This document shows positions 5,143 through 35,452 of a stretch of DNA of 43,471 nucleotides, piece by piece. This DNA is from a virus: positions 1 through 43,471 of IMG/VR virus record IMGVR_UViG_3300021959_000092. One strand, 5' to 3'. Numbering within the stretch: the first letter of the stretch is position 1; each line of letters opens with the position of its first letter. The position numbers and the translations under genes were made by a program. Under the pieces are notes generated by a model. It saw only the letters and a list, made by a program, of their open reading frames with translations, was not told the DNA's origin and made no database searches.

Positions 5143-6117
5143 ATGGCTACAATTCCTACACCTTTATTTTTTCGTAGCGATAAAGACCCGCAAATTATGA
5201 CCTCTAATGAGATTAATTTTAATATTAATCAAGTTATATCTGCATATGCACAAAACCCACTTATGACATTAGAGCCATCAACTGTTGACTCTGGTAATCT
5301 TGGACCCATAGCTGATACTAGAAGGACAACTTCTGCGACTAATTCAACAACTTTTAATGTTTCAGCAAGTGCTAGTGCAACATTAGTTATAACTGGTGCT
5401 AATTTTTATTTGAAACAAACCATTGCTGATAGTGCAGATGCGCAACAGCCAGTCAATCCTTTACCTTTATATAGAAATCCAGATGGATCTTTACAGTCAA
5501 TGACTCCAACTGAATTCACTGATACATTTATTGTACCAGCAATAGAAAGATTTTTACTAGACAGTAATGAGGACACTAGTTTTCAAGGTGGTACGCATAT
5601 TCTAAGTACATCACAATCAGTAGTTGATCATGTTTTAGTAAGTCCAACTCCTGCTTTTAGCGATACAAGATCTGCTGATGGTGGATCAAGTTCATATCCT
5701 AATGCTGGTATTGGTAATGTTGGCACCAGTAGAGATAATCCTGTAACTCATACCAATTTTTACATACATAGAAAAAAAGGACCGAATGGTGATGCTGATT
5801 CTGCTGAACAACCTTTTGGTATGTATAGAAGAACTGATGGAGATATTCAAGCATACTCTTTAACAGAATGGAATAGTTTATTACAAGGATACATGAGATG
5901 GAAATTACATTCTTCTTATGGCGGAGGATTTGAATATAGTTTATCTACTGGTAGCATTAGAGGAACAGGAATAACAGATACTAGACTAGATACTTCAGCT
6001 GAAACAACAGGAAATAGATTGGTCACTTCTGACGATTATAGAAACCAAAGATATCCAGGTGGCGTTCCTCAAAATATAACAACAACTTATCTTCGAATGA
6101 AGAAAAGAGGAACTTAA
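5143..6117 (+). CDS. tail-fibre cassette partner protein, copy A
   Basis: A 324-residue protein preceded by a GGAG ribosome site. It is paralogous to the protein at 25032: both start MAT.(T)P.(F/Y)F, share G.IG.I.D.R near residue 50-60, P.YR....L..MT...F.DTF.VPA..R around the middle, and (S/F)D.R and DDYR.Q..P.G near the C-terminus. The family is not one I can name. Its constant position directly after a fibre-like gene suggests a fibre-associated or adhesin-accessory structural protein. Its stop overlaps by three bases the stop of the convergent minus-strand gene, marking the edge of the accessory island. Confidence 0.55.
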   Translation: MATIPTPLFFRSDKDPQIMTSNEINFNINQVISAYAQNPLMTLEPSTVDSGNLGPIADTRRTTSATNSTTFNVSASASATLVITGANFYLKQTIADSADAQQPVNPLPLYRNPDGSLQSMTPTEFTDTFIVPAIERFLLDSNEDTSFQGGTHILSTSQSVVDHVLVSPTPAFSDTRSADGGSSSYPNAGIGNVGTSRDNPVTHTNFYIHRKKGPNGDADSAEQPFGMYRRTDGDIQAYSLTEWNSLLQGYMRWKLHSSYGGGFEYSLSTGSIRGTGITDTRLDTSAETTGNRLVTSDDYRNQRYPGGVPQNITTTYLRMKKRGT

Positions 6118-6941
6118 AATAAATTAAACCATTTGTTGTAGTTTTCAAAATTTTTATTGATTACGTGAACAAAAACTGGATTTATTTTTTTCGTATTAAG
6201 ATTACTTGTTATATCATCTACTATAAAATTCCACTTTTGATGTAAGTCATTAAATTCAATATTATTTTTTTCTATAAGATAAGATAAAAACACTTCATTA
6301 TTTGGAGTCATTTTATCAGCAATTTCTCTTGGGTATACATTATCTTCTTTGGCTTCATATAACAACTCAATCATATCATTTAAATTTTCAGTAAACTTTA
6401 TTTTTTCTATTGCTTCGCTATTACCACCAAGAACTCCTGTGTTAATTAACATCTCATTAACATCATACTTATCTTTTAAGTGTAGCATAGAATTTTTAGC
6501 ACATGCTTTAACCCAAGCATTCTGATGATCTAAACAATCAAGACGATTATATAATTCCCATTTTCTAAAGTATCTATCTAATCCCCACTCTTTACCATTC
6601 TGTCTATAGAAACATATTTTACTTAAATCATTTTTCTTAAAGAAATCTACAAATGTAAAAGGGACAACATCAAGATCTAGATATAAGACTTCTTCATATT
6701 GTTTGGCTAGTTCTTCAAATTGTTTTATTTTCATAAATTGTATGGTCGTATAATCGTCAATTAAAAATTCATCAGTTTCATATACAAAATAATCAGCTTG
6801 ACAAAACTTAGCATATTCGTTTTGCCTTCTCATCAGTTTTTCTTTATATAAATGTAACTGTTGTTTTTTATAAGAAGTAACACTATGATCTTTTACTTCT
6901 TGATAAACACTAAAGATTACTCTTGAATTTCCAGACATCAT
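6114..6941 (-). CDS. DxD glycosyltransferase-like protein
   Basis: Contains EVLYLDLDVVP, a DxD sugar-nucleotide/metal-binding motif of GT-A fold glycosyltransferases (GT8-like context), followed further on by NTGVLGG, a segment typical of these enzymes. It is a paralog of the upstream gene at 6910-7767, which has the same order of motifs (KLVHCINKRFD against VFVHVINKNFE near the C-terminus). I place the start at the ATG pair at 6941/6938 because alignment with the paralog begins at RVIFSVY against RLIYSLY and an AAGAGA sequence precedes it. A longer frame to 7007 would add 22 unaligned residues. The start overlaps the end of the upstream gene by about 32 nt. Predicted cytoplasmic enzyme; sugar and acceptor unknown. 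Confidence 0.7.
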   Translation of the reverse strand: MMSGNSRVIFSVYQEVKDHSVTSYKKQQLHLYKEKLMRRQNEYAKFCQADYFVYETDEFLIDDYTTIQFMKIKQFEELAKQYEEVLYLDLDVVPFTFVDFFKKNDLSKICFYRQNGKEWGLDRYFRKWELYNRLDCLDHQNAWVKACAKNSMLHLKDKYDVNEMLINTGVLGGNSEAIEKIKFTENLNDMIELLYEAKEDNVYPREIADKMTPNNEVFLSYLIEKNNIEFNDLHQKWNFIVDDITSNLNTKKINPVFVHVINKNFENYNKWFNLF

Positions 6942-7767
6942 CAAATCTCTTATTAATGCAATGAACGAGTTTGCTTTTCTTAGGAATCCAATTTTCTTTT
7001 GGATCATAAAAGAAATGCCACTCTTTATTTAACCATTGAGTTCTAACGTTATTTACCTTAGATTTATATCCCCATATAGTTTCGTTATCATAACCGAATA
7101 TATCTCTGAGCTCTTTCGGATAGTATGTGTCACTTTTTACAGCTGTCATTAGTTCTATCGTCTTATCAAAACTACCAAAATAATCTAGTTGTTCTAGATG
7201 CTCTTTATTAATTCCTATAATTCCTGTATTATAAACATCATTGACAATACTATGACCACCATCGAATAACATTGCTTTAGTATTCCACCATTTTGCTAAA
7301 GGACTTCTATTGGAAGTAGAATATCTATGAGAATAATATTTTATACTATAATCATCATTGTTATTATAAATTGCCACACCATCATTTAAATCCCAAACAT
7401 CAAAAAAGTTTTCATTCGTAACAGGAACTACATCGAAGTCGAGATATAATATCTCATCGTATTGTTTTGATAATTCATATAATAAATGTACTTTGTAAAA
7501 GTTAACAATACAATACTCTGTAATCATAGGATATTTTTCTTTAAACATCTTATGATATTCTTTATAAGTATTATCATATTCAAAGAGTTTATATTCAGTA
7601 GAAATATTTTTTGCGTATTGTTGATGCGATTCTTTTAGTCTATCGTAATGGTCGATAAACTGAAGTTTTGTTCTCTGAGTTTTAGGAATGTCGTCACCAT
7701 GATATGGTGGCTGATAATCTAAATCTTCGGCAGGAATATCAATGTATAAACTATAAATCAATCTCAT
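6910..7767 (-). CDS. DxD glycosyltransferase-like protein
   Basis: 285 residues. The DxD motif is at D110-x-D112 in EILYLDFDVVP, followed by YNTGIIGIN in the second half, the arrangement of GT-A fold, GT8-like transferases. It is the first gene of a two-gene minus-strand unit driven by a late promoter (7789-7782). The predicted transcript would leave only about 9 nt of leader (GAGTTTATT), with GAG acting as ribosome site. The paralog immediately downstream suggests a local gene duplication followed by divergence. Sugar specificity cannot be read from the sequence. Confidence 0.72.
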   Translation of the reverse strand: MRLIYSLYIDIPAEDLDYQPPYHGDDIPKTQRTKLQFIDHYDRLKESHQQYAKNISTEYKLFEYDNTYKEYHKMFKEKYPMITEYCIVNFYKVHLLYELSKQYDEILYLDFDVVPVTNENFFDVWDLNDGVAIYNNNDDYSIKYYSHRYSTSNRSPLAKWWNTKAMLFDGGHSIVNDVYNTGIIGINKEHLEQLDYFGSFDKTIELMTAVKSDTYYPKELRDIFGYDNETIWGYKSKVNNVRTQWLNKEWHFFYDPKENWIPKKSKLVHCINKRFDDVWKFKSNL

Positions 7768-7781
7768 AATAAACTCTATAA

Positions 7782-7795
7782 TATTTATATAAATA
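7782..7795. promoter_or_regulatory. divergent overlapping T4-type late promoters in one palindrome
   Basis: TATTTATATAAATA is a perfect 14-bp palindrome. It contains TATAAATA on the plus strand at 7788-7795 and TATAAATA on the minus strand at 7789-7782. TATAAATA is the T4 late promoter -10 consensus (recognised by gp55 sigma with gp33 and the sliding clamp). The plus-strand start is predicted near 7801, giving a 29-nt leader with AAGGAG before the gene at 7830. The minus-strand start is predicted near 7776, giving a 9-nt leader before the gene starting at 7767. Confidence 0.7.
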
Positions 7796-7829
7796 ATTTA
7801 AAAGTGAAATGATGTTATAAGGAGTAATT

Positions 7830-8414
7830 ATGAGTAGAGCATTTCCTAGAGACTGCGAATATTTAAAAGGCAGCGCAAGATTTACAAATGATGAAAAAGA
7901 TACAGTAGAATTATTGTATTACAATAAAGAAGAAGAAAATCCAATTTATAATGTACATGTTTTACCTGCCGACCCCGACTTTCCTCCATTCGTATGGATA
8001 TTAGAAAACTGTGAAGATTTAGATTCGATTCATGCTAATACTTATCGTTGGATAAGAGAACAAAGAAAAGCGTATGAAGAACAAGTTATGGCAATCGCTA
8101 AAGAGGAAGGGTTGATATTCACCTCAGGTTTAGCAGATGTTCGTTCATATAAAACTTTTTTAGAATCTATATTTAAACCTTTTGATGATACAAAGGAAGC
8201 TGAATCGAATAATCTATTTTCTATTAAACTAGAGTTGTTTGAAATGGCTCATATTCGTCAAAATGAAAACCCAGATCTAAAGAAAGCATTAAGAAGAGCT
8301 GAAACTCCTCTAGAAGTTGTTAGAGCTGCAATTGATATTCATCTTGACAATGTTGCCAATGGGATTGAAATTCAGGAAGAAGATACTTCTGATACCAACC
8401 AGGAGCCTGCATAG
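7830..8414 (+). CDS. uncharacterised late protein
   Basis: 194 residues, acidic and soluble, with no signal peptide or membrane segment. I do not recognise the family. The N-terminus (MSRAFPRDCEYLKGSARF) is followed by a region rich in aromatic residues (PPFVWILE) and then a mostly helical C-terminal half. The last ~25 residues are acidic and probably flexible. It has a canonical late promoter (7788-7795) and AAGGAG ribosome site, so it is a genuine gene expressed late. Its 3' end overlaps the convergent minus-strand gene at 8320-8928 by 95 nt. It is the only non-enzyme-looking gene in the island. Confidence 0.65.
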   Translation: MSRAFPRDCEYLKGSARFTNDEKDTVELLYYNKEEENPIYNVHVLPADPDFPPFVWILENCEDLDSIHANTYRWIREQRKAYEEQVMAIAKEEGLIFTSGLADVRSYKTFLESIFKPFDDTKEAESNNLFSIKLELFEMAHIRQNENPDLKKALRRAETPLEVVRAAIDIHLDNVANGIEIQEEDTSDTNQEPA

Positions 8415-8928
8415 ATTCGTATCTTTGATTAAATAGATATACACTATACTCTCTTTCGTCAAGTATTGTTTGATAGGAACAAACTCCTCCTTCAGGAAAA
8501 ACAATATACTCGTGATTCTCATGTAAATATTGGTCTATGCCTTTATGATATTTGACCATATGGTAATCAGGTTGTTCCATAAAGTCCTTGTATATAAATG
8601 ATTTGTTACCATACCAAGATATAATAGAACTATTGATAGGTGTATGGTAAGCAGGGCGCCACCATGCGTATATGACTGATAATGCCTGTGATATAAACTT
8701 ATTACAATCACCACGAATGATTACATCTAGGTCAAAGTATATATTGTAATCTTTTGTGAATCGTTCGAAGATTTGTAGTTTGTTAAATACACCCTCGTGT
8801 CTATCTTCACTTACTACATTGAACGTATCATACTCAATATTAGAAAACTTATCAATCATATATTTTAAATTGTCAATATAGATTGGGTGGTACTTATCAC
8901 CAGTACAAACACATATTATATTAAGCAT
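8320..8928 (-). CDS. putative glycosyltransferase with DxD motif
   Basis: 202 residues. It begins MLNIICVCTGDKYHPIYIDN and has a DxD motif at D66-x-D68 in YNIYFDLDVII, after the helix KLQIFERF, the pattern of small GT-A fold transferases encoded by marine phages. It overlaps the upstream gene by 8 nt (start at 8928, upstream stop at 8921) and is the last gene of the minus-strand operon that starts at 11764. The C-terminal ~30 residues are encoded opposite the end of the plus-strand gene at 7830-8414. A transferase function is inferred from the motif and context only. Confidence 0.62.
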   Translation of the reverse strand: MLNIICVCTGDKYHPIYIDNLKYMIDKFSNIEYDTFNVVSEDRHEGVFNKLQIFERFTKDYNIYFDLDVIIRGDCNKFISQALSVIYAWWRPAYHTPINSSIISWYGNKSFIYKDFMEQPDYHMVKYHKGIDQYLHENHEYIVFPEGGVCSYQTILDEREYSVYLFNQRYESMQAPGWYQKYLLPEFQSHWQHCQDEYQLQL

Positions 8929-9661
8929 GCCAATGTTCTCTTACCCAATTATATCGTTCAGTCAAAATATAATTGTCAGGGTTTGAGAAGTGTATAATCT
9001 TTAATTTAGGATTTATCTCATCGCCCATAATTTGAAACTCTTGGTTAAAACTATCTCTGTATAGTTCTTGATATGTGAGATTGCGTTCAAAGTCTTTAGT
9101 CCATTTACCAACCCATTCTCCTGGCATATGTGTAATCTTTACACCTTCTTCTCTACATGTATCTTCTACGAAGTTTTGTTCACCAAAGAATTTGAAATGC
9201 ACTACCATGTTTTTATAGTAGTGTTCTTGCCACTTGACAGGATTTATTAGAAACTTTTTCCATATAAAGTCTAGACTTCCTGCTTTGAATTTATACCAAC
9301 CACCATTTATAGTTGTGTGAGGACTTTTATTCCACCATTTTTTATACGAAACAAGTTCGTTTTCTTCTACTGGCCAATTAACCATTTCTGTAATATTACT
9401 TACAATTAATTGGTCGATATCCATAACAATAATATCACCATCGCCAGTAAAGTTCTTGTCAAAGAATTGTAGTTTGAACCAATGCTCTTTTATAATACCA
9501 TTTTGCTTTAAAGGTATGATTTTATCTGCAAGTACATCACTATCGCTATAACACACAAACTCAAAGTCAACATCACAATGTTTCTTTAGTGAGTTATAAA
9601 GGTTTGCAACATAATCTGTATTATATTTGCCTTCGTAATATAAACAAAATATCTTAATCAT
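8921..9661 (-). CDS. putative glycosyltransferase with DxD motif
   Basis: 246 residues. The N-terminus MIKIFCLYYEGKYNTDYVAN parallels that of the next gene (MLNIICVCTGDKYHPIYIDN). The sequence HWFKLQFFDKNF precedes a DxD motif at D81-x-D83 in IIVMDIDQLIV, the metal/sugar-nucleotide site of GT-A enzymes. The late segment FFGEQNFVED resembles the 'GDQ' loop common in this group. The ribosome site is GAGTAG just upstream. The start overlaps the end of the SPASM-like gene by 8 nt. Together with the downstream gene it forms the glycosyltransferase half of a radical SAM/glycosyltransferase operon. Confidence 0.65.
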   Translation of the reverse strand: MIKIFCLYYEGKYNTDYVANLYNSLKKHCDVDFEFVCYSDSDVLADKIIPLKQNGIIKEHWFKLQFFDKNFTGDGDIIVMDIDQLIVSNITEMVNWPVEENELVSYKKWWNKSPHTTINGGWYKFKAGSLDFIWKKFLINPVKWQEHYYKNMVVHFKFFGEQNFVEDTCREEGVKITHMPGEWVGKWTKDFERNLTYQELYRDSFNQEFQIMGDEINPKLKIIHFSNPDNYILTERYNWVREHWHA

Positions 9662-9956
9662 TGACTACTCTTTTTAACTTTTTAAATTTAGTACCACTTT
9701 CACTACAATAATCTATACATTGTTCGAAAGGTTCTTTATCCCAACTCTCTGGCAATTTTTTATTTAACCATTCACTTTCGCCAAGTATTTCTTCAAGAGG
9801 TTTATTAAATATATTGTGTTCTTCTTTATTATATGGGTATCCTTTTTTGAAGAAAAGATTCGCTAAGTAACAACAAGGTGCGACTTGGCCATCAGGATTA
9901 ACAACAACTCTTCTAGAGTTTAACCACTTACATGATATACAGTTTTTATTTTTCAT
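9654..9956 (-). CDS. SPASM/twitch-like auxiliary Fe-S domain protein (separate from its radical SAM core)
   Basis: A 100-residue protein starting MKNKNCISCKWLNSRRVVVN with a C-x2-C pair at residues 6 and 9, then GQVAPCCYL (Cys pair near residues 27-28), then NKPLEEILGESEWL and a C-terminal Cys pair (QCIDYC). This is the layout of the C-terminal SPASM/twitch region of radical SAM maturases, which binds auxiliary [4Fe-4S] clusters. Its start overlaps the end of the core gene by 11 nt (the core's stop lies in GAAAAATAA). The two reading frames would join by a +1 (or -2) shift. It could be a naturally two-subunit enzyme, a frameshift-expressed fusion, or a recent indel. Confidence 0.65.
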   Translation of the reverse strand: MKNKNCISCKWLNSRRVVVNPDGQVAPCCYLANLFFKKGYPYNKEEHNIFNKPLEEILGESEWLNKKLPESWDKEPFEQCIDYCSESGTKFKKLKRVVND

Positions 9957-10611
9957 CAGGATACTCTAGTATAAATTTAGACCCATCAGGATTTATATAT
10001 TTAAAATCAGACGTTCTATCAGACAAAATACATACATGACTTTTAGCACCATTGTTTAGACAAAGCTGTTTTATTTCTTCTATATCGTTTTGATTGTGTT
10101 TAAACACTATTGTCTGTCCAATGGCTTTGGCTTTTGTCATAGAAAACGACTTCATATTATCTAACACTTTATTTAAGTCAGTAAATTTTCTATATAGTTG
10201 ATGTTGTTCTTGGTCTTTACCATCGATGCCAAAAACAACTTGTAATCTATCGCCACACATTACTCCTAAATCCCACCACCATCTTTCATCACGAATACTA
10301 CCATTGGTGTTAATTATAATATGAGTTTTATGAGAAAATTTTTCCGTCTCTTCCATAATATATTCACATATTTTAAATATGTCTTTATTCATAACAGGGT
10401 CTCCCCAAGTACCACATATTTGAATAGCATCTATTATTTCTAGTGTACTGGGTCTATATGCTTTTTTAAAATCTTCTAATGACCAATTTATTAAAGGGAG
10501 CCAATCTGCTTTTCCTAAACCATTAGGATTAGTTCTGTCGCACTGAGGACAACCAGCATTACAATAAGTTGATATATCAGCAAAGATTTCAAAATGTTTT
10601 TGCGGCCACAT
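9946..10611 (-). CDS. radical SAM core protein
   Basis: Contains the radical SAM signature CNAGCPQC (C17, C21, C24 from the chosen start), which coordinates the [4Fe-4S] cluster that cleaves S-adenosylmethionine, followed by ICGTWGDPVMNKDI in the position of the usual GGEP loop and HIIINTNGS, a typical beta-strand. At about 221 residues it holds only the partial TIM barrel; the auxiliary domain is on the next ORF. I chose ATG at 10611 over TTG at 10617; both lie inside the end of the upstream twitch radical SAM gene (overlap about 23-29 nt). Substrate unknown; peptide or sugar modification is typical for the family. Confidence 0.75.
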   Translation of the reverse strand: MWPQKHFEIFADISTYCNAGCPQCDRTNPNGLGKADWLPLINWSLEDFKKAYRPSTLEIIDAIQICGTWGDPVMNKDIFKICEYIMEETEKFSHKTHIIINTNGSIRDERWWWDLGVMCGDRLQVVFGIDGKDQEQHQLYRKFTDLNKVLDNMKSFSMTKAKAIGQTIVFKHNQNDIEEIKQLCLNNGAKSHVCILSDRTSDFKYINPDGSKFILEYPDEK

Positions 10612-11764
10612 CCTCAAATACTTTCATAAAATCTATGCCACGATATTTTGATAATCTTAAACAATAATCAAGTCCTTGTTTTAGTTCTTGTTCATCATAC
10701 TCTTTAGATAATTCTCCTCTAACCATTTCAAAGTCCTTACCATGATATTGCTTCAATAATTCATCTTTATCTTTTATATTTTTACAAGATAACATTGGCG
10801 GGTTAACAACTATGTTATGGAAGTATGTTTCTATTCCAAACTTATCTCTATAATATCTTCTTATGGCAAACAAGTCGTGGACATTTAATAAACTTACAGA
10901 ACAAGCGATTCCTGTTAGTAATTCTTTTGCGTCTTTTAGATTTCTTTCAAACTCCTCAACATCAATCGGATATCGTATCCATTTTAGTTTTTCACCATAA
11001 TGGTCAGCCGATACACTCATCATTAGACTTTTAAATTTATTTGGAATGTCAAATACACTATAATTACCAAAGTTTAATTTAGTAAGATTCGTTTGAAATG
11101 TTACATGAATATTCTTTGCGGCTTCGTCTGGTATCCTATCCATAATTTCCCACATGCGAGGGATGATAACTGGCTCGCCACCAATAAATTTTATACTGTT
11201 TACTTTATCTATGTTTTCTAATATATTATCAACTATCTGATCGAATCTTTTTGTACTTACATTTCTAGGGTTATCATCAAAAGAATAACCAATCCCTGGA
11301 ACAAGCTCGTCTTCATTTAAACTAGATCCCTTTGCTTGATTCCATACTTTATCAATACCAGATTGTTTCAATTCCATACGTCTAAAGGATGAATTGTAAG
11401 GGATACACATATAACAACCAAGATTACAATGCGATCCGCCAATACGAAGTTTTAAATCTATTTTATCTACTTCGGATTTATGTGTAAACTTTTCATTATA
11501 CTTTGTTATTCTTGGGGATGGTTTACCAGCATCTTCAAGTTTATAACAATATTCACATCCTTGTATGCGTTTTCCTTCCATCATATCCTGACGAATCTGT
11601 TCCATTTCATCTGACATAAAATAGTCAAAAGGTAACGTGTTTACAGCATCATACTTTTCTATAGATTTGTTTATGGTAGCAAAACAACAAAGTCTATATC
11701 TTGAAGTATTATCACTGTAAATTTCGTTGAATGGGTAGGCGCAATATTTGTTCTTTTCTTTCAT
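10589..11764 (-). CDS. twitch domain-containing radical SAM protein
   Basis: 391 residues. The N-terminal region has C8 in YCAYPF, a Cys pair at C26-C27 (LCCFA) and C70/C73 (GCEYC), a twitch-like auxiliary cluster placed before the core. The radical SAM motif CNLGCYMC lies at C113, C117 and C120, followed by KFIGGEPVIIP (GGE motif). Proteins with this order, N-terminal twitch then radical SAM core, occur in marine phages and bacteria; substrates are mostly unknown. It is the first gene of a five-gene overlapping minus-strand operon. The upstream 57-nt spacer shared with the divergent gene at 11822 has a near-consensus late element. No clear Shine-Dalgarno precedes this start. Confidence 0.78.
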   Translation of the reverse strand: MKEKNKYCAYPFNEIYSDNTSRYRLCCFATINKSIEKYDAVNTLPFDYFMSDEMEQIRQDMMEGKRIQGCEYCYKLEDAGKPSPRITKYNEKFTHKSEVDKIDLKLRIGGSHCNLGCYMCIPYNSSFRRMELKQSGIDKVWNQAKGSSLNEDELVPGIGYSFDDNPRNVSTKRFDQIVDNILENIDKVNSIKFIGGEPVIIPRMWEIMDRIPDEAAKNIHVTFQTNLTKLNFGNYSVFDIPNKFKSLMMSVSADHYGEKLKWIRYPIDVEEFERNLKDAKELLTGIACSVSLLNVHDLFAIRRYYRDKFGIETYFHNIVVNPPMLSCKNIKDKDELLKQYHGKDFEMVRGELSKEYDEQELKQGLDYCLRLSKYRGIDFMKVFEDVAAKTF

Positions 11765-11821
11765 AATAAATATTTACAAATTGAATAATTTATATTATAA
11801 TATTATATATAAGGAGTTTAA
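11765..11821. promoter_or_regulatory. AT-rich divergent promoter spacer between two radical SAM operons
   Basis: This 57-nt spacer is almost entirely A/T. On the minus strand TATAAATT (11794-11787) differs from the T4 late consensus TATAAATA only at the last base. On the plus strand there is no exact late element, only TATATAAG close to the AAGGAG ribosome site. A 10-bp palindrome ATAATATTAT lies at 11797-11806. It must hold promoters for at least one of the divergent operons; which class is not certain. Confidence 0.35.
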
Positions 11822-12793
11822 ATGTTACCAATTAAAAAAGCTGTTATAGAAGTATGTGGTGCTTGTAACTATAAGTGTCAAATGTGCCCACATTCATTTG
11901 ATGGTGGTCGGGAAAGACCATTCAGACAGCTTATGAATTATCAAATGTACTTAAATATTCTTGACCAATTGATAGATTCTGAGGTTGAAGAAATATATCT
12001 TGAAGGATCTGGCGAGCCGGGTATGAACAAAAAGCTTCCAAAGTTCGTAGAAGCTGGTCACGAAAGAGGATTTAAAATGTCTTTTATTACAAATGGTTCT
12101 TTAATGAAAGGACAGTTTATGAAAGATATTGTTGATGCTGGTTTACACTTCGCAAGATTCTCTGTTACGGGTTACAATCGTGAAAAGTATAAAGAATGGA
12201 TGTCCGAAGATAATCTAGAGATGATTATCGACAACGCAAATAATATGCTCGCTTACATCAAAGAATCAGGTTCAGATGCGACAATAGGTTCGTATCATCT
12301 TATATTAGATAATGATAATCAAGACTATGAAGTAGAACAATATCAAAAAAACTTTATTAATAAGGTTCCTAAAATTAAAGCATCAATATGGCGAATGCAT
12401 AATTGGTCAGGAGTATATGATGAGATTACTTGGCGAAAGAAAAAAGACGCAAGACGTTCATGTGGTAGACCATTCTCACCAGATATTATAATTAGAGCTG
12501 GTGGTAATGATGGGAAGAAAGGTGCAGTCGTTCCATGTTGTATGGTACTTGGTCAAGATAGTAAAGCAGTTCTTGGTCATCTATCAGAAAATACCATTGA
12601 AGAAATATGGAATGGTAAAGAATACGAACATCTAAGAAAGATGCATAGAGAACATCGCTTTGATGAAATTCCTTATTGTAAAGGATGCGATATGTTGTAC
12701 GATACACCAGAAGCAATGGTATGGTCAAACTTCGAAACATCATACAATGTATTGACTGGTGGACTTTTTGATATGAGGGAGTTCAGAATATAA
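11822..12793 (+). CDS. radical SAM/SPASM domain protein
   Basis: 323 residues. The radical SAM motif CNYKCQMC is at C15, C19 and C22, and the GGE-type loop is YLEGSGEPGMNKK. The C-terminal SPASM region has RRSCGRPFSP, then VVPCCMVLGQ, GHLSENTIEEIWNGKEYEHL and PYCKGCDM, the Cys pattern that binds auxiliary clusters. Members modify peptides or sugars by radical chemistry; the substrate here is not evident. The ribosome site AAGGAG lies 7 nt upstream of ATG. It leads a six-gene plus-strand operon containing four GT-B-like paralogs and an oxygenase-like gene. Its stop (ATATAA) overlaps the likely ancestral start of the next gene. Confidence 0.82.
   Translation: MLPIKKAVIEVCGACNYKCQMCPHSFDGGRERPFRQLMNYQMYLNILDQLIDSEVEEIYLEGSGEPGMNKKLPKFVEAGHERGFKMSFITNGSLMKGQFMKDIVDAGLHFARFSVTGYNREKYKEWMSEDNLEMIIDNANNMLAYIKESGSDATIGSYHLILDNDNQDYEVEQYQKNFINKVPKIKASIWRMHNWSGVYDEITWRKKKDARRSCGRPFSPDIIIRAGGNDGKKGAVVPCCMVLGQDSKAVLGHLSENTIEEIWNGKEYEHLRKMHREHRFDEIPYCKGCDMLYDTPEAMVWSNFETSYNVLTGGLFDMREFRI
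12775..12792 (+). promoter_or_regulatory. strong Shine-Dalgarno before a non-standard ATA start
   Basis: GAGGGAG (12775-12781) is followed after 8 nt by ATA (12790-12792). The ATG at 12826 has no comparable site, only short GAG-like sequence immediately adjacent. The ATA overlaps the stop TAA (12791-12793) of the upstream radical SAM/SPASM gene. If base 12792 were G, the sequence would read ATGA, the common start/stop overlap. The site therefore supports an ancestral start at 12790. Confidence 0.6.
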
Positions 12794-13689
12794 GATATAT
12801 TGATACATTATGTATTAATTGTGAGATGTCTAACAGTGGTTGGGAAATAGCACAATTAAATAGTTCACATGTTATAAGACTTGACCAAAACAACTATCAT
12901 GCTTATTGTATATTTGTTAGTATGTTTGGCGAAGTATTTTACACAGCTCATCAACTTCAGTCTGAGGGGATATTAGATCGTCCTTACAAAGTAGCTGTAG
13001 TTATTCCTAAGATAGAAAAGTTCAAAGACGAAGATCCCGAAGATAATCTTACTAGAATAAAATTTATATTGAATAGTTTTGTTCCACCGAAACATGGCAT
13101 CGCAGTTACATTCTATGAACATTGGCAAGAAAAGAAAGTTCAGAAACCATTTGGACCTTTTGTTATTTGGCCTTATAAAGATCGTTGGAAAAATACTGAG
13201 GATTTTGTAACACTGGCTAAAGTTAACGAAATAGAAAACAACGTTCTTTATCCTAACTCAAAAGAAATCTACTATAAAATAGTTAAAGAGTTAGAAGGAT
13301 TAGCAATAAATTATAAAACAGTTGACTATACCACGCCAATAGATGAATTGTTTGATATATTAAGAAGAACAAAATTACTTATCTCATATCCTGGATGTGC
13401 TTATTATATCGCTGGTGGATTAGGAACTCCTTGTTTAGGATTTTCTGATAATAGATTAACGATAACAGATAATTATATTGATAGGAAACATCAAGGAAGT
13501 AAAGAGCTCGTTCCTACACTTACCACAGCTTGGGGTGAATGGTGCTTACATCATGGTAAGATAGTTCACTTTGATGAAGAAAATGGTTTACATAACAGAC
13601 CACAGTCAACAACTTTAAATATAGGAAAAGTTGAAACATTAAGGGATATACAAGTATTAAGGAATAGTATTTTAAATGGAATACATTAA
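12790..13689 (+). CDS. GT-B-like (GT9-like C-terminus) putative glycosyltransferase, paralog 1, probable ATA start
   Basis: The first ATG in frame is at 12826 (287 residues), but the frame is open upstream and reads (I)RYIDTLCINCEM. This aligns residue for residue with the N-terminus of paralog 2, MEYINTIYINC, putting ATA 12790-12792 exactly at the paralog's Met. A strong GAGGGAG lies 8 nt before this ATA. Landmarks shared by all four paralogs are IWP.K..W (IWPYKDRW), (V/I)(D/N)Y(T/S) and a Gly-rich C-terminal motif, here SYPGCAYYIAGGLGTP. That last motif resembles the nucleotide-sugar-binding end of GT9 heptosyltransferases. Translation may begin at ATA or, with a truncated N-terminus, at 12826. 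Confidence 0.6.
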   Translation: MRYIDTLCINCEMSNSGWEIAQLNSSHVIRLDQNNYHAYCIFVSMFGEVFYTAHQLQSEGILDRPYKVAVVIPKIEKFKDEDPEDNLTRIKFILNSFVPPKHGIAVTFYEHWQEKKVQKPFGPFVIWPYKDRWKNTEDFVTLAKVNEIENNVLYPNSKEIYYKIVKELEGLAINYKTVDYTTPIDELFDILRRTKLLISYPGCAYYIAGGLGTPCLGFSDNRLTITDNYIDRKHQGSKELVPTLTTAWGEWCLHHGKIVHFDEENGLHNRPQSTTLNIGKVETLRDIQVLRNSILNGIH

Positions 13690-14584
13690 CACAATTTATA
13701 TTAATTGTAGACGAGGACATGTACCAGAATTACATAATTCTGAAGTTATAAGATTTGATACTAGAAACTGTCACGGATATGCACTGTTTGCTGGTTTGTT
13801 CGGTTCTTTATTCGCTAAAGCATTTAGACTTCAAGAAAGTGGTATATTAGAAAAGCCATATTGTGCTTCTATTGTATTACCAAGAATAGAAAAGTTTAAA
13901 GAGGAAGATCCTGAAACTAATATAGAAAGAATAAGATTTATACTTAAAAATTTAGTTCCTCCCAAAAAAGGAATAATTATTTCTATATATCTGGCTGAAG
14001 AGAATCAAAAATTTATAACTCCATTTACATTAGATACTATATGGTCGTTTAAAAATAGATGGGAAAATATTAGAACACAAGACTTCGTGGTTATACAGGA
14101 TATAAAAGATGTAAAGAATAATAAAAAACATCATCTAGATTGGAAAAAAGGAACTATAAGTGTTGATAATATTAAAAGAGAATTAGATTCAGTAAATATT
14201 CCTTACGAAGTTATAGATTATTCTACTTCTATACAAAAAGTATTTTATTTATTATTAAACTGTAAGATGTTTTTAACTCCTCATAGTGGTGCTTACTTTT
14301 TAGCGGCTGGTCTAAATACTCCTACAGTTTGTTTCGGCGAATCTGTTTATAGTAAAACAAATGATTATTTAGAAACGAATAATATAGGATTAAAACTAAA
14401 AGAAAAAGTTTTGAGCACACCATGGGGAAGAGGTCCATATAATCAGCATGCTGGTAGGATAACTATCGGAAATGGTGAAACTATATATCAAGGCAAACAA
14501 GAATATACTAAAGCCAATATTGGTAATGTAGAAAATAATGAAGATTATAATGTATTGAGAAAAATGATAATGGAGTATTGTTAA
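13676..14584 (+). CDS. GT-B-like putative glycosyltransferase, paralog 2
   Basis: 302 residues. It starts MEYINTIYINC and contains FKEEDPETNIERIRFIL, nearly the same as paralog 1 (FKDEDPEDNLTRIKFIL), then IWSFKNRW, VIDYSTSIQKVF and TPHSGAYFLAAGLNTPT. The last segment is the best match in the set to the GT9-type motif (H/D-S-G..HLA..L.TP). The start overlaps the end of paralog 1 by 14 nt; the same 14-nt overlap recurs at the other two paralog junctions. No DxD is expected in GT-B folds. Sugar donor and acceptor are unknown; a glycan-processing role is inferred from the motif and neighbours. Confidence 0.6.
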   Translation: MEYINTIYINCRRGHVPELHNSEVIRFDTRNCHGYALFAGLFGSLFAKAFRLQESGILEKPYCASIVLPRIEKFKEEDPETNIERIRFILKNLVPPKKGIIISIYLAEENQKFITPFTLDTIWSFKNRWENIRTQDFVVIQDIKDVKNNKKHHLDWKKGTISVDNIKRELDSVNIPYEVIDYSTSIQKVFYLLLNCKMFLTPHSGAYFLAAGLNTPTVCFGESVYSKTNDYLETNNIGLKLKEKVLSTPWGRGPYNQHAGRITIGNGETIYQGKQEYTKANIGNVENNEDYNVLRKMIMEYC

Positions 14585-15090
14585 TGTGGCAACATATAGT
14601 TATAGATGATTTTTTAGATAAAAAGACTTTTAATAAATTATGCGACGGTATAGTCGGTAAAGAACCGCCAAAGAATAAAGTATATAGAGAATGGTTTGAC
14701 CACGATCCTACTCCTCAAATAGCTGACTTCTTTAAAGAATTTAAAGAAACAAGAGAATACAGTGAATATAAAAAACTGATTCATTATGCTATCACACCAG
14801 CTAGATTTATGCATCCTGTTCATGACGAAGCTCCTTTTAAACTTATGTCAGCTATAATATATCTTTCTCCTGAGGAAAACATAGGGACAACTCTTCTAGA
14901 TAGGAGAGGTGAAAAAACAGAAAGAGTACATGTAGATTGGATTCCTAATAGACTTATGATATTTTGTGGTATAACAGATTTGACTTGGCATTACTATGAA
15001 TCAATAGATACTAGATATACTTACAATTATTTTTTAATAGATCCAACTGTAATTGAAAACGACGAATATAAAAACTATGTCATTAGTTAA
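14584..15090 (+). CDS. 2OG-Fe(II) oxygenase-like protein
   Basis: 168 residues from ATG 14584, which overlaps the preceding stop (TAATG) and is preceded by GGAG. Candidate catalytic residues are H80-D-E82 (HxE variant of the HxD iron triad), distal H136 in LTWHYYES and R144 in DTRYTYNYF, the usual arginine for 2-oxoglutarate. The intervening SAIIYLSPEENIGTTLL and WIPNRLMIF match the jelly-roll pattern of small phage hydroxylases. It lies between two pairs of GT-B-like paralogs, suggesting hydroxylation of the same peptide or glycan. Family assignment is moderate because the first metal ligand pair is HDE rather than the more common HxD. Confidence 0.6.
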   Translation: MWQHIVIDDFLDKKTFNKLCDGIVGKEPPKNKVYREWFDHDPTPQIADFFKEFKETREYSEYKKLIHYAITPARFMHPVHDEAPFKLMSAIIYLSPEENIGTTLLDRRGEKTERVHVDWIPNRLMIFCGITDLTWHYYESIDTRYTYNYFLIDPTVIENDEYKNYVIS

Positions 15091-16003
15091 AACATATTAT
15101 CTCAACTGTGAAGATAACGGCGAAGTAGCAACAGAACAAAACGATACAATAAGATTTGATGTATACACTCTTTGGCCTCATTGCACATTTATGAGTGCAA
15201 TGTGTTATTCGTTTTGGAAAGCACAGTTGATGCAACAAGAAGGATTAAATGAACCTAGAAAGATTTGTATACTTGTTGATAAAAAAATAATAAACGAAAA
15301 AGCAAAAAAAGAAAATAAGTCTACAGGGATTGATATGTTGGATTGGTTTATCAATAATATTCAACCAACTATTAATGGATTAATAATTTCAATTTATTCG
15401 CATAAAATTACAGTTCCTTATGTTGAAGATAGATGGTCGGCATCAACTATTTGGCCATTAAAGAAAGAATGGCAATGGAAAGGTGGCGGAGGATACTTCA
15501 CAATACAAGATACTGAAGGAAATGTTTCTTTAAACAAACAACTTAATAAAGATTTTCATAGAACAACTAAAATAATAAAAAATATAGATGAGTATGCGGT
15601 CCTTCCTGTAAAAAGAATAAACTACACTATGTCGGAAGAAGAGATTTTTACTCTATTAAAATATTCTAATTTACACTTTTCTTATTCAGGTGGAACTTAC
15701 TATACAGCAGGAATGATTAGTTGCCCAACAGTTGGATTATACAATGAATACATGCCCAAAGTACCCACAAGTTATTACGATCAATATGATGATTCAAAAT
15801 ATAAAACTGAAACTATAGAATGGGGTTGGTGGAATTTAGGAGTATGTAATGATGTAGGAAGGTTATGTCAATACGATGGTACTTCAGTTATTCAACATCC
15901 TCAAAAGTATTTAAAACATGTATCGATGGAATCAGAATTATTATCTTATTTAAAATGTCAAAGTGATTTTGTAGTAAATGGCAAACGATATGAAATTAGC
16001 TGA
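15077..16003 (+). CDS. GT-B-like putative glycosyltransferase, paralog 3
   Basis: The start is placed at ATG 15077 because MSLVKTYYLNC then aligns with the N-termini of the other paralogs (Cys always at residue 11) and gives the same 14-nt overlap with the preceding gene. A TTG start at 15053 is possible but unsupported. Shared landmarks are TIWPLKKEW, GYFTIQD, INYTMSEEEIFTLL and SYSGGTYYTAGMISCPT. It is closer to paralog 4 than to paralogs 1 and 2 (for example the (V/I)(D/N)YTMS.EEI segment). About 308 residues; predicted cytoplasmic; substrate unknown. Confidence 0.58.
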   Translation: MSLVKTYYLNCEDNGEVATEQNDTIRFDVYTLWPHCTFMSAMCYSFWKAQLMQQEGLNEPRKICILVDKKIINEKAKKENKSTGIDMLDWFINNIQPTINGLIISIYSHKITVPYVEDRWSASTIWPLKKEWQWKGGGGYFTIQDTEGNVSLNKQLNKDFHRTTKIIKNIDEYAVLPVKRINYTMSEEEIFTLLKYSNLHFSYSGGTYYTAGMISCPTVGLYNEYMPKVPTSYYDQYDDSKYKTETIEWGWWNLGVCNDVGRLCQYDGTSVIQHPQKYLKHVSMESELLSYLKCQSDFVVNGKRYEIS

Positions 16004-16853
16004 GACATTTTACATCGGTTGTGATAATGATGGTTCAATAGCAGAGATAGGAATACATCCTACAGTTCGTTGGGATAGATTCGCTGTATATTCATTTAAT
16101 GATATACGATGCGTATTTTCTCTTGCGTTCGCGAACACGCACGTGCTCCATCAAGAAAAAGTTATTCAAGAGTCAACTAGATATGCTATGCTTTTACCCA
16201 TAGTTGATTCTAAGAAGAAATCTAAGAACAAAGAAACATATTATGAAGCAATGACTTGGATTTTGGAAAATATGATTTCACCAAAACCTGGAATTATTAT
16301 ATCATTTTACTTTTATGATTCATTTTATCCTCAACTTATGAATATGCCGACTCAAGATAAGACAGCTATTTGGCCTTTAAAACAACAATGGGTTGGCGAT
16401 GGTGATTATATAACTGTACAAAAATTTGAATCAATTACTGAAGAAAAAAGAAAAAGTAGATCATCTGCTCAATATGAATTAATAAAAAACATTGAAAAAT
16501 TATCTCCATATAAAGTAAAATATGTCGATTACACTATGTCGGTTGAAGAGATAGTTAAATTATTACAACATGGTAAACAACATTATACTTATGATGGTGC
16601 GACTTGGCATCTTGCTGGTATGATGAATGTTCCGACTGTTGTATATGGTTTACTAAAATTTGATACTTACAACAAAGGATATTGGGATCCTGAAGAAGAT
16701 ATAAAACATCAAATAAATCTAAGAGAAACACCTTTTCACGCAAGAACTATTCAATATAATATAAATAAAGATATAGTCTATGCTGGTCCTCAGCAATTTT
16801 GTTATTGTCCAAGAAGCAAAATGGAATTACTTCAAAAAATCAAATTTATATAA
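15990..16853 (+). CDS. GT-B-like putative glycosyltransferase, paralog 4
   Basis: ATG 15990 gives MKLAETFYIGC, matching the paralogs, and overlaps the preceding gene by exactly 14 nt; an in-frame ATG at 15978 would add four residues. Shared landmarks are AIWPLKQQW, DYITVQK, VDYTMSVEEIVKLL and TYDGATWHLAGMMNVPT. It is the last gene of the plus-strand operon. Its stop codon (TAA) lies inside a late promoter for the next gene. The family is not securely named; GT9-like similarity is limited to the C-terminal Gly-rich segment. Confidence 0.58.
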   Translation: MKLAETFYIGCDNDGSIAEIGIHPTVRWDRFAVYSFNDIRCVFSLAFANTHVLHQEKVIQESTRYAMLLPIVDSKKKSKNKETYYEAMTWILENMISPKPGIIISFYFYDSFYPQLMNMPTQDKTAIWPLKQQWVGDGDYITVQKFESITEEKRKSRSSAQYELIKNIEKLSPYKVKYVDYTMSVEEIVKLLQHGKQHYTYDGATWHLAGMMNVPTVVYGLLKFDTYNKGYWDPEEDIKHQINLRETPFHARTIQYNINKDIVYAGPQQFCYCPRSKMELLQKIKFI

Positions 16854-16856: not shown

Positions 16857-16918
16857 ATATCATATAAGTGCAGGGGGTCGTTAGCGGGTCCGACAAAGAA
16901 ATCAAAGAAAGGCATTTC

Positions 16919-17266
16919 ATGGCACAATACGAAGAAATAAGTATCGATCAAGGTACTGATGTTGCTATAACTATGGACTGTTTTGATGAAACAGGTGCCA
17001 AAAAAGACCTTACCAACCATACCGTATACGCCAAATTAAAGAAGAATTATAATAGTGAAGATTTCACTAACTTTACTGCCGTGATTAATACACCTGCTAC
17101 AGATGGTGGCGTTACTCTCTCACTTACAAGCACACAAACAGATACTCTTAAGACTGGAAGACACGTTTATGATGTTGAATTACACTTTATTGATAGTGAT
17201 GGCAATACGATTGTTGAAAGAATTCTAGAAGGTAGAGTCCAAGTAATGCCAAGTGTAACCAAATAG
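16919..17266 (+). CDS. baseplate/fibre-type small structural protein (BppU-like N-terminal domain fold suggested)
   Basis: 115 residues from ATG 16919, preceded by AAAGG at 6-nt spacing; an in-frame GTG at 16868 would add 17 residues that look unlike protein. The pattern IDQGTDVAITMDCFDETG, DLTNHTVYAKLKK, ITLSLT-like SLTSTQTDTLKTGRHVYDVEL and a final ILEGRVQVMPSVT matches small immunoglobulin-like baseplate or structural proteins common before long fibre genes in T4-like marine phages. It is likely to contact the following 1308-residue fibre. The comparison with BppU-type domains is from pattern memory. Confidence 0.62.
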   Translation: MAQYEEISIDQGTDVAITMDCFDETGAKKDLTNHTVYAKLKKNYNSEDFTNFTAVINTPATDGGVTLSLTSTQTDTLKTGRHVYDVELHFIDSDGNTIVERILEGRVQVMPSVTK

Positions 17267-26018: not shown

Positions 26019-26774
26019 ATGGCTAATCCAACAACAAGAGATACATTAATAGACTATTGCAAAAGGAGACTTGGCGATCCTGTAATTGAAATTAATATTG
26101 ATGAAGACCAAATAGAAGATAGGGTCGATGAAGCATTACAAATATTTCAAGAATATCATTCCGAAGCAACATATAGAACATATGTTAGTTATCAAGTAAC
26201 TGCAGATGATGTTACTAATAAGTATGTATCTGTTGATTCAAGTATTTTATTTATTTCAAGAATGTTTGCGATTGATGCAACATTCGGTTCAAGTATAAAC
26301 TTCTTTGATATTAAATATCAAATGATGTTAAATGACATAGCCGATATGCATAATTACATCGGCGACTTGGCATACTATGAACAAATGCAACAATATCTAT
26401 CGTTATTAGATATGAAATTAAATGGCACACCTCAAGTTGAATATGCAAGAAAACAAGATAGACTTTATATATTTGGTGAATTTGCTGATGGTGATTTAAA
26501 AGCTGGTGACTATATTGTATACGAAGCATATAAAATTATAGATCCGGCTTCTTTTAGTAAAGTTTGGAACGATATGTGGTTGAAAGAATATACAACTGCA
26601 TTATTCAAACAACAATGGGGGCAAAATTTAATTAAGTTCGAAGGAATGACACTTCCAGGTGGAGTAACACTAAATGGGAGACAACTATATGATGATGCAA
26701 GTACAGATTTAGAGAGATTAAGAGAACGATTACGACTTGACCATGAAGAACCAATAGACTTTTTTGTAGGATAG
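26019..26774 (+). CDS. 13: gp13-like neck protein
   Basis: 251 residues. The start ANPTTRDTLIDYCKRRLGDP followed by DEDQIEDRVDEALQIFQEYH is characteristic of T4-like gp13 neck proteins of marine myoviruses, shorter than T4 gp13 (309). gp13 forms the neck ring with gp14, sealing filled heads and accepting the tail. Its position directly before gp14 and gp15 supports the call. GGAG ribosome site; the gene is the first after a late promoter. Confidence 0.85.
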   Translation: MANPTTRDTLIDYCKRRLGDPVIEINIDEDQIEDRVDEALQIFQEYHSEATYRTYVSYQVTADDVTNKYVSVDSSILFISRMFAIDATFGSSINFFDIKYQMMLNDIADMHNYIGDLAYYEQMQQYLSLLDMKLNGTPQVEYARKQDRLYIFGEFADGDLKAGDYIVYEAYKIIDPASFSKVWNDMWLKEYTTALFKQQWGQNLIKFEGMTLPGGVTLNGRQLYDDASTDLERLRERLRLDHEEPIDFFVG

Positions 26775-28815: not shown

Positions 28816-30415
28816 ATATTATCTTGGTAATCCACTCGTAAAAAGAGATGGTGTTGTCCAAGACTGGACTCAAGAGCAGTTAAAAGAATATGCCAAATGT
28901 ATGAAGGATCCTTCGTACTTTACCGAAAAATATATTAAAATTATTTCACTTGATAAAGGACTAATTCCTTTTGAATTGTATCCATATCAAAGGAAGATGT
29001 TTAAACAGTTTCGAGAAGAACGATTTAATATCGTATTAGCATGTAGACAGTCAGGGAAGTCTATTTCTGCTTGTGCTTTTCTATTATGGTTTGCTTTATT
29101 TAACCCAGAAAAAACCATCGCTATAATGGCAAATAAAGGAGCTACGGCGAGGGAGATGTTAGGTCGTATAACTTTAATGCTTGAAAATTTACCATTCTTT
29201 TTACAACCTGGATGTAAAGCTCTAAACAAAGGCTCAATTGAGTTTTCAAACAATTCAAGAATAGTTGCGGCTGCTACATCAGGAAGTTCTATTCGTGGTA
29301 TGTCTGTTAACTTACTATATCTTGACGAGTTCGCATTCGTAGAACACGCCGCTGAGTTTTATACATCAACTTATCCTGTGGTATCAGCTGGAACAAATAC
29401 TAAGATTATTGTTACATCAACAGCGAATGGTGTTGGTAATATATTTTATAATATATGGCAAGGAGCTGAACAAGGTGTTAATGAATTTAAATCATTTAGA
29501 GTTGATTGGTGGGATGTTCCAGGAAGAGATGATGATTGGAAAGTTCAAACAATAGCTAATACATCACAACTACAGTTCGACCAAGAGTTCGGTAATACGT
29601 TTTTCGGTACAGGTGATACATTAATTAATGCTGAAACATTAATGAAATTAAAGGCAAAAAATCCAATAGAAGCACTAGAAGGAGGAAAACTTCTAGTCTA
29701 CGAAAAGACTGTAAAAGACCATGCGTACATCATGACTGTTGACGTAGCAAAAGGTAGAGGACAGGATTATTCTACTTTTACAATAATCGATATATCTACT
29801 TCGCCGTTTAGGCAAGTGGCTGTGTATCGCAACAATGTTATTTCTCCGATACTCTACCCTAACATTATATATAAGTTTGCGAAAGTCTATAATAATGCTT
29901 ATGTTGTTATAGAAGCAAACGACCAAGGCAGTATCGTATGTAATGGTTTATATCACGAGTTTGAATACGAAAACATGTATCTAGAATCTGCAATCAAAGC
30001 AGATAAGATTGGTGTTGAAATGACTAGGAAAACTAAAAGAATTGGTTGTAGTTCATTTAAAGATTTAATAGAAAATGACAAACTTGACATAGTAGACCAA
30101 GAAACTATTATGGAAATATCTACATTTGAAGCAAGGGGACAATCTTACGAAGCAACTCCAGGAAACCATGATGATTTAGTTATGAATCTTGTGATGTTTG
30201 GATATTTCGTATATACCGAAGCATTTCAGGATATATCTAATATTAATTTAAAAGAAATGTTATTTGATGATAGAATGAAACAAATAGATGATGATGTCGT
30301 TCCATTTGGTTTTCACGATGATGGTGTTGATTTTGTTGAAGAACAAGATAGACGTGATGAGTGGTATCAAACATACAACCCAGAATGGGGTGACAAATAT
30401 AGGGATGAATTTTGA
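28805..30415 (+). CDS. 17: gp17-like large terminase (packaging ATPase/nuclease)
   Basis: 536 residues from ATG 28805, chosen over an in-frame TTG at 28784 because homologs start near this point; it overlaps gp16 by 11 nt. The ATPase domain has CRQSGKS (about 80-86, Walker A), LLYLDEFAF (170-178, Walker B with Glu) and TSTANG (coupling motif). The C-terminal RNase H-like nuclease has MTVDVAKGRGQDYS (Asp 313), EANDQG and HDDLVMNLVMF. It cuts concatemers and drives DNA into proheads docked on the gp20 portal. T4 gp17 is 610 residues. Confidence 0.93.
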   Translation: MQNEYYLGNPLVKRDGVVQDWTQEQLKEYAKCMKDPSYFTEKYIKIISLDKGLIPFELYPYQRKMFKQFREERFNIVLACRQSGKSISACAFLLWFALFNPEKTIAIMANKGATAREMLGRITLMLENLPFFLQPGCKALNKGSIEFSNNSRIVAAATSGSSIRGMSVNLLYLDEFAFVEHAAEFYTSTYPVVSAGTNTKIIVTSTANGVGNIFYNIWQGAEQGVNEFKSFRVDWWDVPGRDDDWKVQTIANTSQLQFDQEFGNTFFGTGDTLINAETLMKLKAKNPIEALEGGKLLVYEKTVKDHAYIMTVDVAKGRGQDYSTFTIIDISTSPFRQVAVYRNNVISPILYPNIIYKFAKVYNNAYVVIEANDQGSIVCNGLYHEFEYENMYLESAIKADKIGVEMTRKTKRIGCSSFKDLIENDKLDIVDQETIMEISTFEARGQSYEATPGNHDDLVMNLVMFGYFVYTEAFQDISNINLKEMLFDDRMKQIDDDVVPFGFHDDGVDFVEEQDRRDEWYQTYNPEWGDKYRDEF

Positions 30416-35191: not shown

Positions 35192-35452
35192 ATGGCTGAT
35201 AATGCGATAACAAATGATTTGATTAATAGTATTTTAGCAGGAAGTTTTAATAATGCTGAAAAAATGCTACATCAAAATTTAGCACAAAAACAAAATGATT
35301 TGCTCGACCAAGAAAAGATTAAAATGGCTGGGCAAATGTATAATAACGTTCAACCTGAAGAAGATGAAGAGGTCGAATTAACTGATGATGATATAGAAAA
35401 TGCTATTGATGATGAAGCAGAAGAACTTGGAAATGACGAGGAACAAGAGTAA
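35192..35452 (+). CDS. prohead core protein (gp67-like)
   Basis: 86 residues between portal and protease genes, the usual place for the small prohead core proteins. The N-terminal helix (NDLINSILAGSFNNAEKMLH) is followed by a lysine/glutamine stretch and a highly acidic C-terminus (EDEEVELTDDDIENAIDDEA), the composition of T4 gp67-type scaffold proteins that are cleaved to internal peptides. AAGGAGATAAATT is an excellent ribosome site. Confidence 0.7.
   Translation: MADNAITNDLINSILAGSFNNAEKMLHQNLAQKQNDLLDQEKIKMAGQMYNNVQPEEDEEVELTDDDIENAIDDEAEELGNDEEQE

Follow-up and report, generated by a model that had tools for sequence, protein, structure and literature searches.

What are sugar-transferase-like, radical S-adenosylmethionine (SAM) and oxygenase-like genes doing between the tail-fibre genes of a marine phage? 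The question is raised by IMG/VR record IMGVR_UViG_3300021959_000092, a 43,471-base virus record from a T4-like marine myovirus that was analysed as a whole (hereafter the window), and in particular by an island at 6114-16853, in which all 14 open reading frames (ORFs) were confirmed to be present. A first-pass annotation had read these genes as one late-expressed pathway that would build an unusual glycan or peptide modification, perhaps on the fibres. We found that the island consists of two separable modules, a minus-strand arm and a plus-strand arm, and that the glycosyltransferase (GT) core of the minus-strand arm travels almost obligatorily with one tail-fibre family, f5143/f25032.

The fibre-linked GT8 cassette

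The genes of this cassette and their fibre-block neighbours are as follows.

5143-6117, plus strand: fibre-type protein f5143, of the f5143/f25032 family linked to the GT8 cassette (422 IMG/VR relatives; linkage tests)
6114-7007, minus strand: GT8-like glycosyltransferase A6114, subfamily GA1 (DxD; paralog of 6910; Pfam Glyco_transf_8 matches in its family)
6910-7767, minus strand: GT8-like glycosyltransferase A6910, core of the fibre-linked cassette (at least 311 IMG/VR relatives; D110 and D112 invariant in 71 sequences)
7830-8414, plus strand: U7830, a conserved fibre-block protein (in 48/49 fibre loci; 3′ end overlaps the last GT gene)
8320-8928, minus strand: GT8-like glycosyltransferase A8320, subfamily GA2 (PHROG 1962 glycosyltransferase, 5.6e-4; family profile matches glycogenin)
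8921-9661, minus strand: GT8-like glycosyltransferase A8921, subfamily GA2 (PHROG 1962 glycosyltransferase, 1e-14; family profile matches glycogenin)

The four DxD proteins named in the first-pass annotation stood up to closer comparison as two paralog pairs (6114/6910, 27.5% identity, E 3e-26; 8320/8921, 26%, E 3e-6), and judged from sequence they are predicted to belong to GT8-like families. The DxD motif is invariant within each family. Pfam Glyco_transf_8 (PF01501) is matched by 28 of 71 members of GA1, the 6910/6114 family (best 2.2e-7; the window's own 6910 gave no direct Pfam match), a profile of the GA2 family (8921/8320) finds glycogenin in the PDB (E 1.4e-3), and hhalign links the two families remotely (81%). 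This GT8 subfamily is virus-endemic: in 84,980 cellular genomes there were only three matches to the GT8 core, all on contigs with the same phage U7830/fibre block, and a cellular origin was rejected because these are phage-like contigs in metagenome-assembled genomes (MAGs). The three MAG contigs (L171, L172 and L173), which are assigned to Gammaproteobacteria and Rhodobiaceae and carry the phage GT8-U7830-fibre block, are probably viral contamination.

The linkage was counted in the best-scoring relatives (the best 80 of 422 fibre relatives were fetched), deduplicated by sequence, and the counts are given without phylogenetic correction. Seen from A6910, with 44 distinct loci having enough flank out of at least 311 IMG/VR relatives, a further GT8-like gene lies downstream in all 44, U7830 on the opposite strand in 36 and an f25032-type fibre in 35. 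Seen from the fibre, U7830 is present in 48 and GT8-like genes in 47 of 49 distinct loci. The 3′ end of U7830 overlaps the last GT gene by 3-76 nucleotides (nt) in 24 of the 26 measurable loci. Radical SAM genes are optional additions to this fibre-linked cassette, since they are present in only 17/44 loci (within 8 kb) on the A6910 side and in 38/49 on the fibre side.

As a control, loci were picked by a neutral structural gene, the neighbouring v4374, and split by the presence of the f5143/f25032 fibre. GT8 genes were found in 8/8 loci with the fibre versus 1/21 without it (Fisher p = 2e-6), and radical SAM genes in 6/8 versus 2/21. U7830 was found in 8/8 versus 7/21, and six of those seven are without GT8. 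Thus, U7830 belongs to the fibre block, since it is also present in 6/20 loci that carry neither this fibre nor GT8, and for the same reason its candidacy as a GT helper was rejected. The AlphaFold2 (AF2) model of U7830 (pLDDT 89.9) gave no convincing match to known folds, which does not make its fold new. Among 50,697 phage records, v4374 is present in 111, and A6910, U7830 and the fibre were found in just one, that of the cultured Pelagibacter phage Mosig.

Genomic setting and the two arms

The island sits between a VrlC-like region (82-2766), whose f2059 matches Mosig VrlC, and a neck/adaptor-like gene (26019-26774; 45% identity to the head-tail adaptor of Phage C48C1), with fibre-type genes on both sides (5143-6117 and 17276 onward). 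The window terminase is 68.6% identical to that of C48C1 (Kyanoviridae) and 46.6% to those of cyanophages. As first annotated, two divergent blocks with overlapping genes lie between the fibre regions, and they part at 11764/11822; the G+C content of the island, 0.306, is slightly lower than that of its flanks (0.340 and 0.349). The pelagimyophage 'host recognition cluster' (HRC) is described (PMC7029224) as a hypervariable island from VrlC to gp14 with fibres, GT8 genes and radical SAM cassettes. Both the position of the present island, from VrlC to neck gp14 with fibres, and its variable GT8 and radical SAM content agree with this description, and the island therefore belongs to that published kind. 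The VrlC-like gene itself is broken into two ORFs in the window (a stop at 2049, and a new ATG at 2059 after AGGAG) and is a single reading frame in L002, L086 and Mosig. On the downstream side, the island is bounded by a gp57-like gene.

16868-17266, plus strand: gp57-like fibre-assembly gene (PHROG 3304, L-shaped tail fiber protein assembly, 2.6e-17; TATAAATA upstream)

The remaining genes of the minus-strand arm are of the radical SAM type.

9654-9956, minus strand: SPASM domain alone, split from 9946 (Pfam SPASM 7.8e-7)
9946-10617, minus strand: radical SAM core without SPASM (Pfam Radical_SAM 2.5e-5; PHROG 21308 1.9e-25; CxxxCxxC)
10589-11764, minus strand: N-terminal-twitch radical SAM protein (NCBIfam NF033640, N_Twi_rSAM, E 2.5e-73, 247.5 bits, cut-off 170; Pfam 1e-10)

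The radical SAM set of the first-pass annotation (10589 with a twitch, 9946 plus 9654 as a split SPASM enzyme, 11822 with SPASM) is present, and 10589 passes the curated N_Twi_rSAM cut-off. The split did not hold in the nearest relatives: three IMG/VR contigs (L001, L002 and L003) carry 9946 and 9654 as one fused radical SAM/SPASM gene of 346-353 amino acids (aa), and in a tree 9946 falls inside the clade of fused genes. Since the overlap of the two reading frames falls in a short A-rich stretch in the window, a single length change could create the split, which may be a sequence error; this reading is countered by the additional loss of about 20 linker residues from 9946/9654. There is also a clade of genuinely two-gene enzymes, a radical SAM protein plus a standalone SPASM-like protein, in the same islands, that of cultured Mosig included.

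In these two-gene cases the SPASM-like protein has 91-151 aa and the motif PKC...TNRGHLIPCCWCD, as in Mosig (L170, 6106-7072), L090, L121, L137, L140, L162 and others. Among the distinct short radical SAM genes of the 9946-like family, 17/29 are followed by such a protein, and the two-gene members cluster in one part of the tree together with a few fused ones. A further radical SAM/SPASM gene (30412-31209) lies between the terminase and sheath genes of the window, and R9946-like genes stand near the terminase in L139, L153 and L157.

The plus-strand arm has the following genes.

11822-12793, plus strand: radical SAM/SPASM protein R11822 (Pfam Radical_SAM 2.7e-13, SPASM 1.5e-11)
12826-13689, plus strand: GT-B (GT9-like) paralog B12826 (paralogy; motif check; hhalign to the GT9-like family; orthologs 61-86% in L001-L003)
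13676-14584, plus strand: GT-B (GT9-like) paralog B13676, modelled (AF2 pLDDT 83.8, pTM 0.86; Foldseek TibC; VIA WaaF/WaaC)
14578-15090, plus strand: probable 2-oxoglutarate (2OG)-Fe(II) oxygenase-like protein (HxE..H..R; 25.7% match to an annotated 2OG-Fe(II) oxygenase, E 2e-6)
15053-16003, plus strand: GT-B (GT9-like) paralog B15053 (paralogy; motif check; ortholog 64% in L002)
15978-16853, plus strand: GT-B (GT9-like) paralog B15978 (sole window copy with a D....H motif, YDGATWHLA; orthologs 78-79% in L001 and L003)

The four plus-strand paralogs (24-36% identity to each other) appear to be GT9-like in fold, of the GT-B type. For the B13676 model, the nearest PDB match by Foldseek is the protein heptosyltransferase TibC (prob 0.99, E 3.6e-3), and VIA gives a Z of 9.8 to WaaF/WaaC (root-mean-square deviation 3.6 over 191 residues to WaaF); this supports the fold moderately, because VIA Z scores of 7-8 are common for unrelated folds. 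The assignment is strengthened by an independent sequence link, since the paralogs are homologous to a GT9-like protein that is paired with R11822 relatives elsewhere (hhalign 96%, E 3.5e-9). Thus, the GT-B part of the first-pass claim holds for the fold, and its GT9 part fails at the motifs: the catalytic GxGD aspartate, which with D..H is present in the related radical SAM-paired family, is absent from all four copies. The window proteins may be transferases that have diverged, or relatives that bind sugars. PDB profile searches with the GT-B families and the oxygenase-like protein yielded nothing useful, and scans of other viruses with the GT-B queries A5 and 15978 found the L001-L003 contigs only.

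The oxygenase assignment of 14578-15090 survives in part. When the protein was compared with the HxD/E...H...R facial triad and 2OG arginine expected of such enzymes, H82, E84, H138 and R146 (HxE..H..R) proved invariant in four relatives and a single annotated 2OG-Fe(II) oxygenase is matched, but neither Pfam nor the PDB gave a match. The protein also matches PHROG 274 (9.8e-7), whose label, DNA endonuclease V, looks misleading here.

Relatives of R11822 are widespread, and 23 of 52 distinct loci have a GT9-like gene directly upstream, usually overlapping, that encodes 265-290 aa with the hallmarks GxGD and YDGMWHYIA; the downstream gene is often GT25-like. In C48C1, the nearest annotated genome, the R11822-GT9 pair is found at about 98 kb, beside a carbamoyltransferase and a GT gene, and the fibres at 132-154 kb. 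The plus-strand arm is thus a separable glycan module that here adjoins the fibres. Independent scattering of the genes in relatives, which the first-pass annotation had set against a common pathway, was therefore seen in part, the pair being tens of kb away from the fibres.

This separation also bears on whether the fibre locus is simply an insertion hot spot with fast-turnover cargo, in which the enzymes form no single pathway and only the GT8 core has a job there. Such a reading would fit the varying module content of the three nearest contigs: the GT-B set turns over (three or four copies, 38-86% identity), L001 and L003 carry an extra B12-binding radical SAM gene after 11822, and an additional insert in L001 encodes a QueC-like PP-loop protein, a GNAT-like/methyltransferase protein and one more radical SAM protein. 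However, all three keep the island genes in order, with the same fibre genes on either side, conservation of R11822 stands at 94% (that of the minus-strand proteins is mostly 55-94%) and the window GT-B copies are still full-length, and we consider mere cargo unlikely.

The radical SAM genes could also be taken as the sign of a peptide or protein modification akin to that of ribosomally synthesized and post-translationally modified peptides (RiPPs), in which the transferases would work on the altered peptide or straight on a virion protein. Peptide maturation is a frequent role of SPASM and twitch radical SAM proteins, and the radical SAM domains of R11822 and fused R9946 are remotely similar to peptide-maturase models, among others. 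However, for neither 11822 nor the fused relative of 9946 did any peptide-maturase equivalog come close to its cut-off, the fibre-GT8 cassette can do without radical SAM genes, and the three intergenic gaps (62, 57 and 32 nt) are too short for a precursor gene. A RiPP pathway was therefore rejected, and the peptide alternative of the first-pass annotation is quite improbable.

A glycan on the fibre or on the host

A hydropathy scan of all 14 island proteins predicted no membrane segment; together with the lack of room for a precursor peptide gene, this makes glycan assembly in the cytoplasm the most economical reading. No recurrent flippase-, polymerase- or ligase-like gene was noticed in the fibre-adjacent islands, and decoration enzymes (carbamoyltransferase, DegT aminotransferase, epimerase, nitroreductase) are co-resident in relatives' islands. 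We tentatively favour an HRC-type glycan island with cytoplasmic building and tailoring of a glycan and the linked fibre as the likeliest acceptor. From the observed gene content, families, synteny, fibre-GT8 association and radical SAM-GT9 adjacency, we infer acceptor and sugar, and what each radical SAM enzyme would do chemically, as follows. The four soluble GT8-like transferases, a virus-endemic cassette inherited with the adjacent f5143/f25032 fibre, would assemble a short glycan in the host cytoplasm and attach it to that fibre protein. Tailoring of the sugar, or of the residue that accepts it, would fall to the radical SAM enzymes (10589, 9946 plus 9654, and 11822) and the oxygenase. 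The plus-strand arm would be a second module, a radical SAM/SPASM enzyme with diverged GT9-like proteins, imported beside the fibres. Of the sugar-transfer pathway first proposed near the fibres, the GT8 families, the GT-B fold and the GT8-fibre statistics remain, and the single pathway gives way to two separable modules with optional radical SAM genes. A more specific version, in which the GT8 cassette is dedicated to one fibre family and the often split radical SAM enzymes make an unusual sugar or linkage that diversifies host recognition, is rather doubtful.

Outside the island, a KdsB-like CMP-sugar synthetase (35400-36128, between portal and head genes; NCBIfam E 4.6e-40, below cut-off) could supply an activated acid sugar. 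The ORF at 40229-40912, which follows the tail-tube-like gene (39636-40232), reads by eye like a sulfotransferase; it had no Pfam or PHROG match. A multi-membrane protein with about eight predicted segments occurs in the fibre-adjacent islands of L156 (4737-6005) and six other A6910-type loci, and from its sequence is presumably of the TctA transporter type.

Late expression had been suggested by the first-pass annotation from exact T4-type promoters, of which one divergent pair lies within the island.

7782-7795, both strands: divergent TATAAATA sites, the minus-strand one at 7789-7782 (15 nt ahead of the 6910 start) and the plus-strand one at 7788-7795 (35 nt ahead of the 7830 start)

The plus-strand site is also present in L001. 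The window holds 10 TATAAATA sites versus 8.45 expected, a number reached in 33/100 shuffles. In relatives, it is over-represented ahead of the gp57-like gene (17/27) and ahead of fibre genes of the f5143/f25032 type (8/37). Neither the window counts nor the relatives support the idea that such promoters drive the entire island late, and it was rejected as unsupported.

Several observations weigh against the fibre as acceptor. In relatives, neither the GT genes nor radical SAM genes of the island type have an excess of TATAAATA in front of them. With U7830 distance accounted for, no co-variation is left between the sequences of GT and fibre (partial r 0.06, p 0.19), and their co-evolution was rejected on this ground. 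Three of the four window GT-B copies are without both GT9 motif residues, D..H being kept only in 15978. The linkage to one fibre type is also expected if the enzymes alter the receptor recognised by that fibre. Host O-chain modification is, moreover, the published interpretation of the HRC transferases (PMC7029224). The fibre model is kept as tentative because the co-variation test was negative and the enzyme genes are without a conserved late promoter.

Receptor modification on the host is thus the main rival, and it predicts the same linkage. During infection, the transferases would extend or decorate the host lipopolysaccharide (LPS) or some other glycan of its surface, which would change receptors and keep out co-infecting phages. 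That linkage to a single fibre type fits modification of that fibre's receptor, the LPS enzymes WaaC/WaaF have the same fold as the GT-B paralogs, and the proposal already exists for the same region and GT8 family in pelagimyophages (PMC7029224). However, the island has no membrane protein and no flippase, polymerase, ligase or bactoprenol enzyme, its GT8 transferases form a virus-endemic subfamily and not one derived from host LPS loci, and the benefit of late modification is uncertain when the host is about to lyse. We regard host-envelope modification as quite possible.

Comparison with known systems

The island differs from the Gtr-type O-antigen seroconversion clusters, which are recognised by a membrane flippase, bactoprenol transferase or membrane transferase, in that its proteins carry no predicted membrane segment. 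The GT9 enzymes WaaC/WaaF and TibC share the overall GT-B fold with the four window paralogs, but the window copies are without the GxGD aspartate and mostly without D..H, at 9-14% identity. In mycobacteriophages, phage-encoded transferases have been proposed or shown to glycosylate virion proteins, with transferase families other than the island's. To our knowledge, radical SAM tailoring has no precedent in phage-encoded virion glycosylation. Such glycosylation is briefly mentioned in PMC11256854. The T4-like Campylobacter phages CP220 and CPt10 have 11-12 radical SAM genes in interchangeable clusters (PMC2853527), and a CP220 radical SAM protein is 32% identical to 9946 over 77% of 9946; in contrast to the present island, the string 'glycosyl' is absent from that report as a whole, and no fibre linkage is mentioned in the portion of it at hand.

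The closest likeness is to the pelagimyophages. The HRC shares the hypervariable VrlC-gp14 island with tail fibres, GT8 transferases and radical SAM cassettes, while the sections of PMC7029224 at hand contain no description of an obligate fibre-U7830-GT8 unit, of GT9-radical SAM pairing or of split radical SAM/SPASM genes. The island of Mosig EXVC030M (MT647606, 56-74 kb) shares the A6910-type GT8, U7830 and the f25032-type fibre in the same arrangement, with the fibre protein encoded at 72526-73446. It also encodes radical SAM proteins, a carbamoyltransferase, aminotransferase, methyltransferase and oxygenase, but homologs of R11822 and of the window-type GT-B proteins were not found there. 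Both the radical SAM/SPASM genes, which recur in split form, and the radical SAM-GT9 pairs suggest that these very abundant marine viruses carry out sugar chemistry of an uncharacterised kind. Taken together, the island is ordinary in kind, an HRC, and the fibre-GT8 unit is the specific new regularity. A region formerly read as host O-chain genes in a hypervariable island now yields, through the near-obligate link between the fibre and virus-endemic transferases, a specific testable claim: either the enzymes modify the fibre itself or they act on the receptor of that fibre. Since cultured Mosig EXVC030M carries the same fibre-U7830-GT8 unit, the choice between virion and host surface can be answered with existing material.

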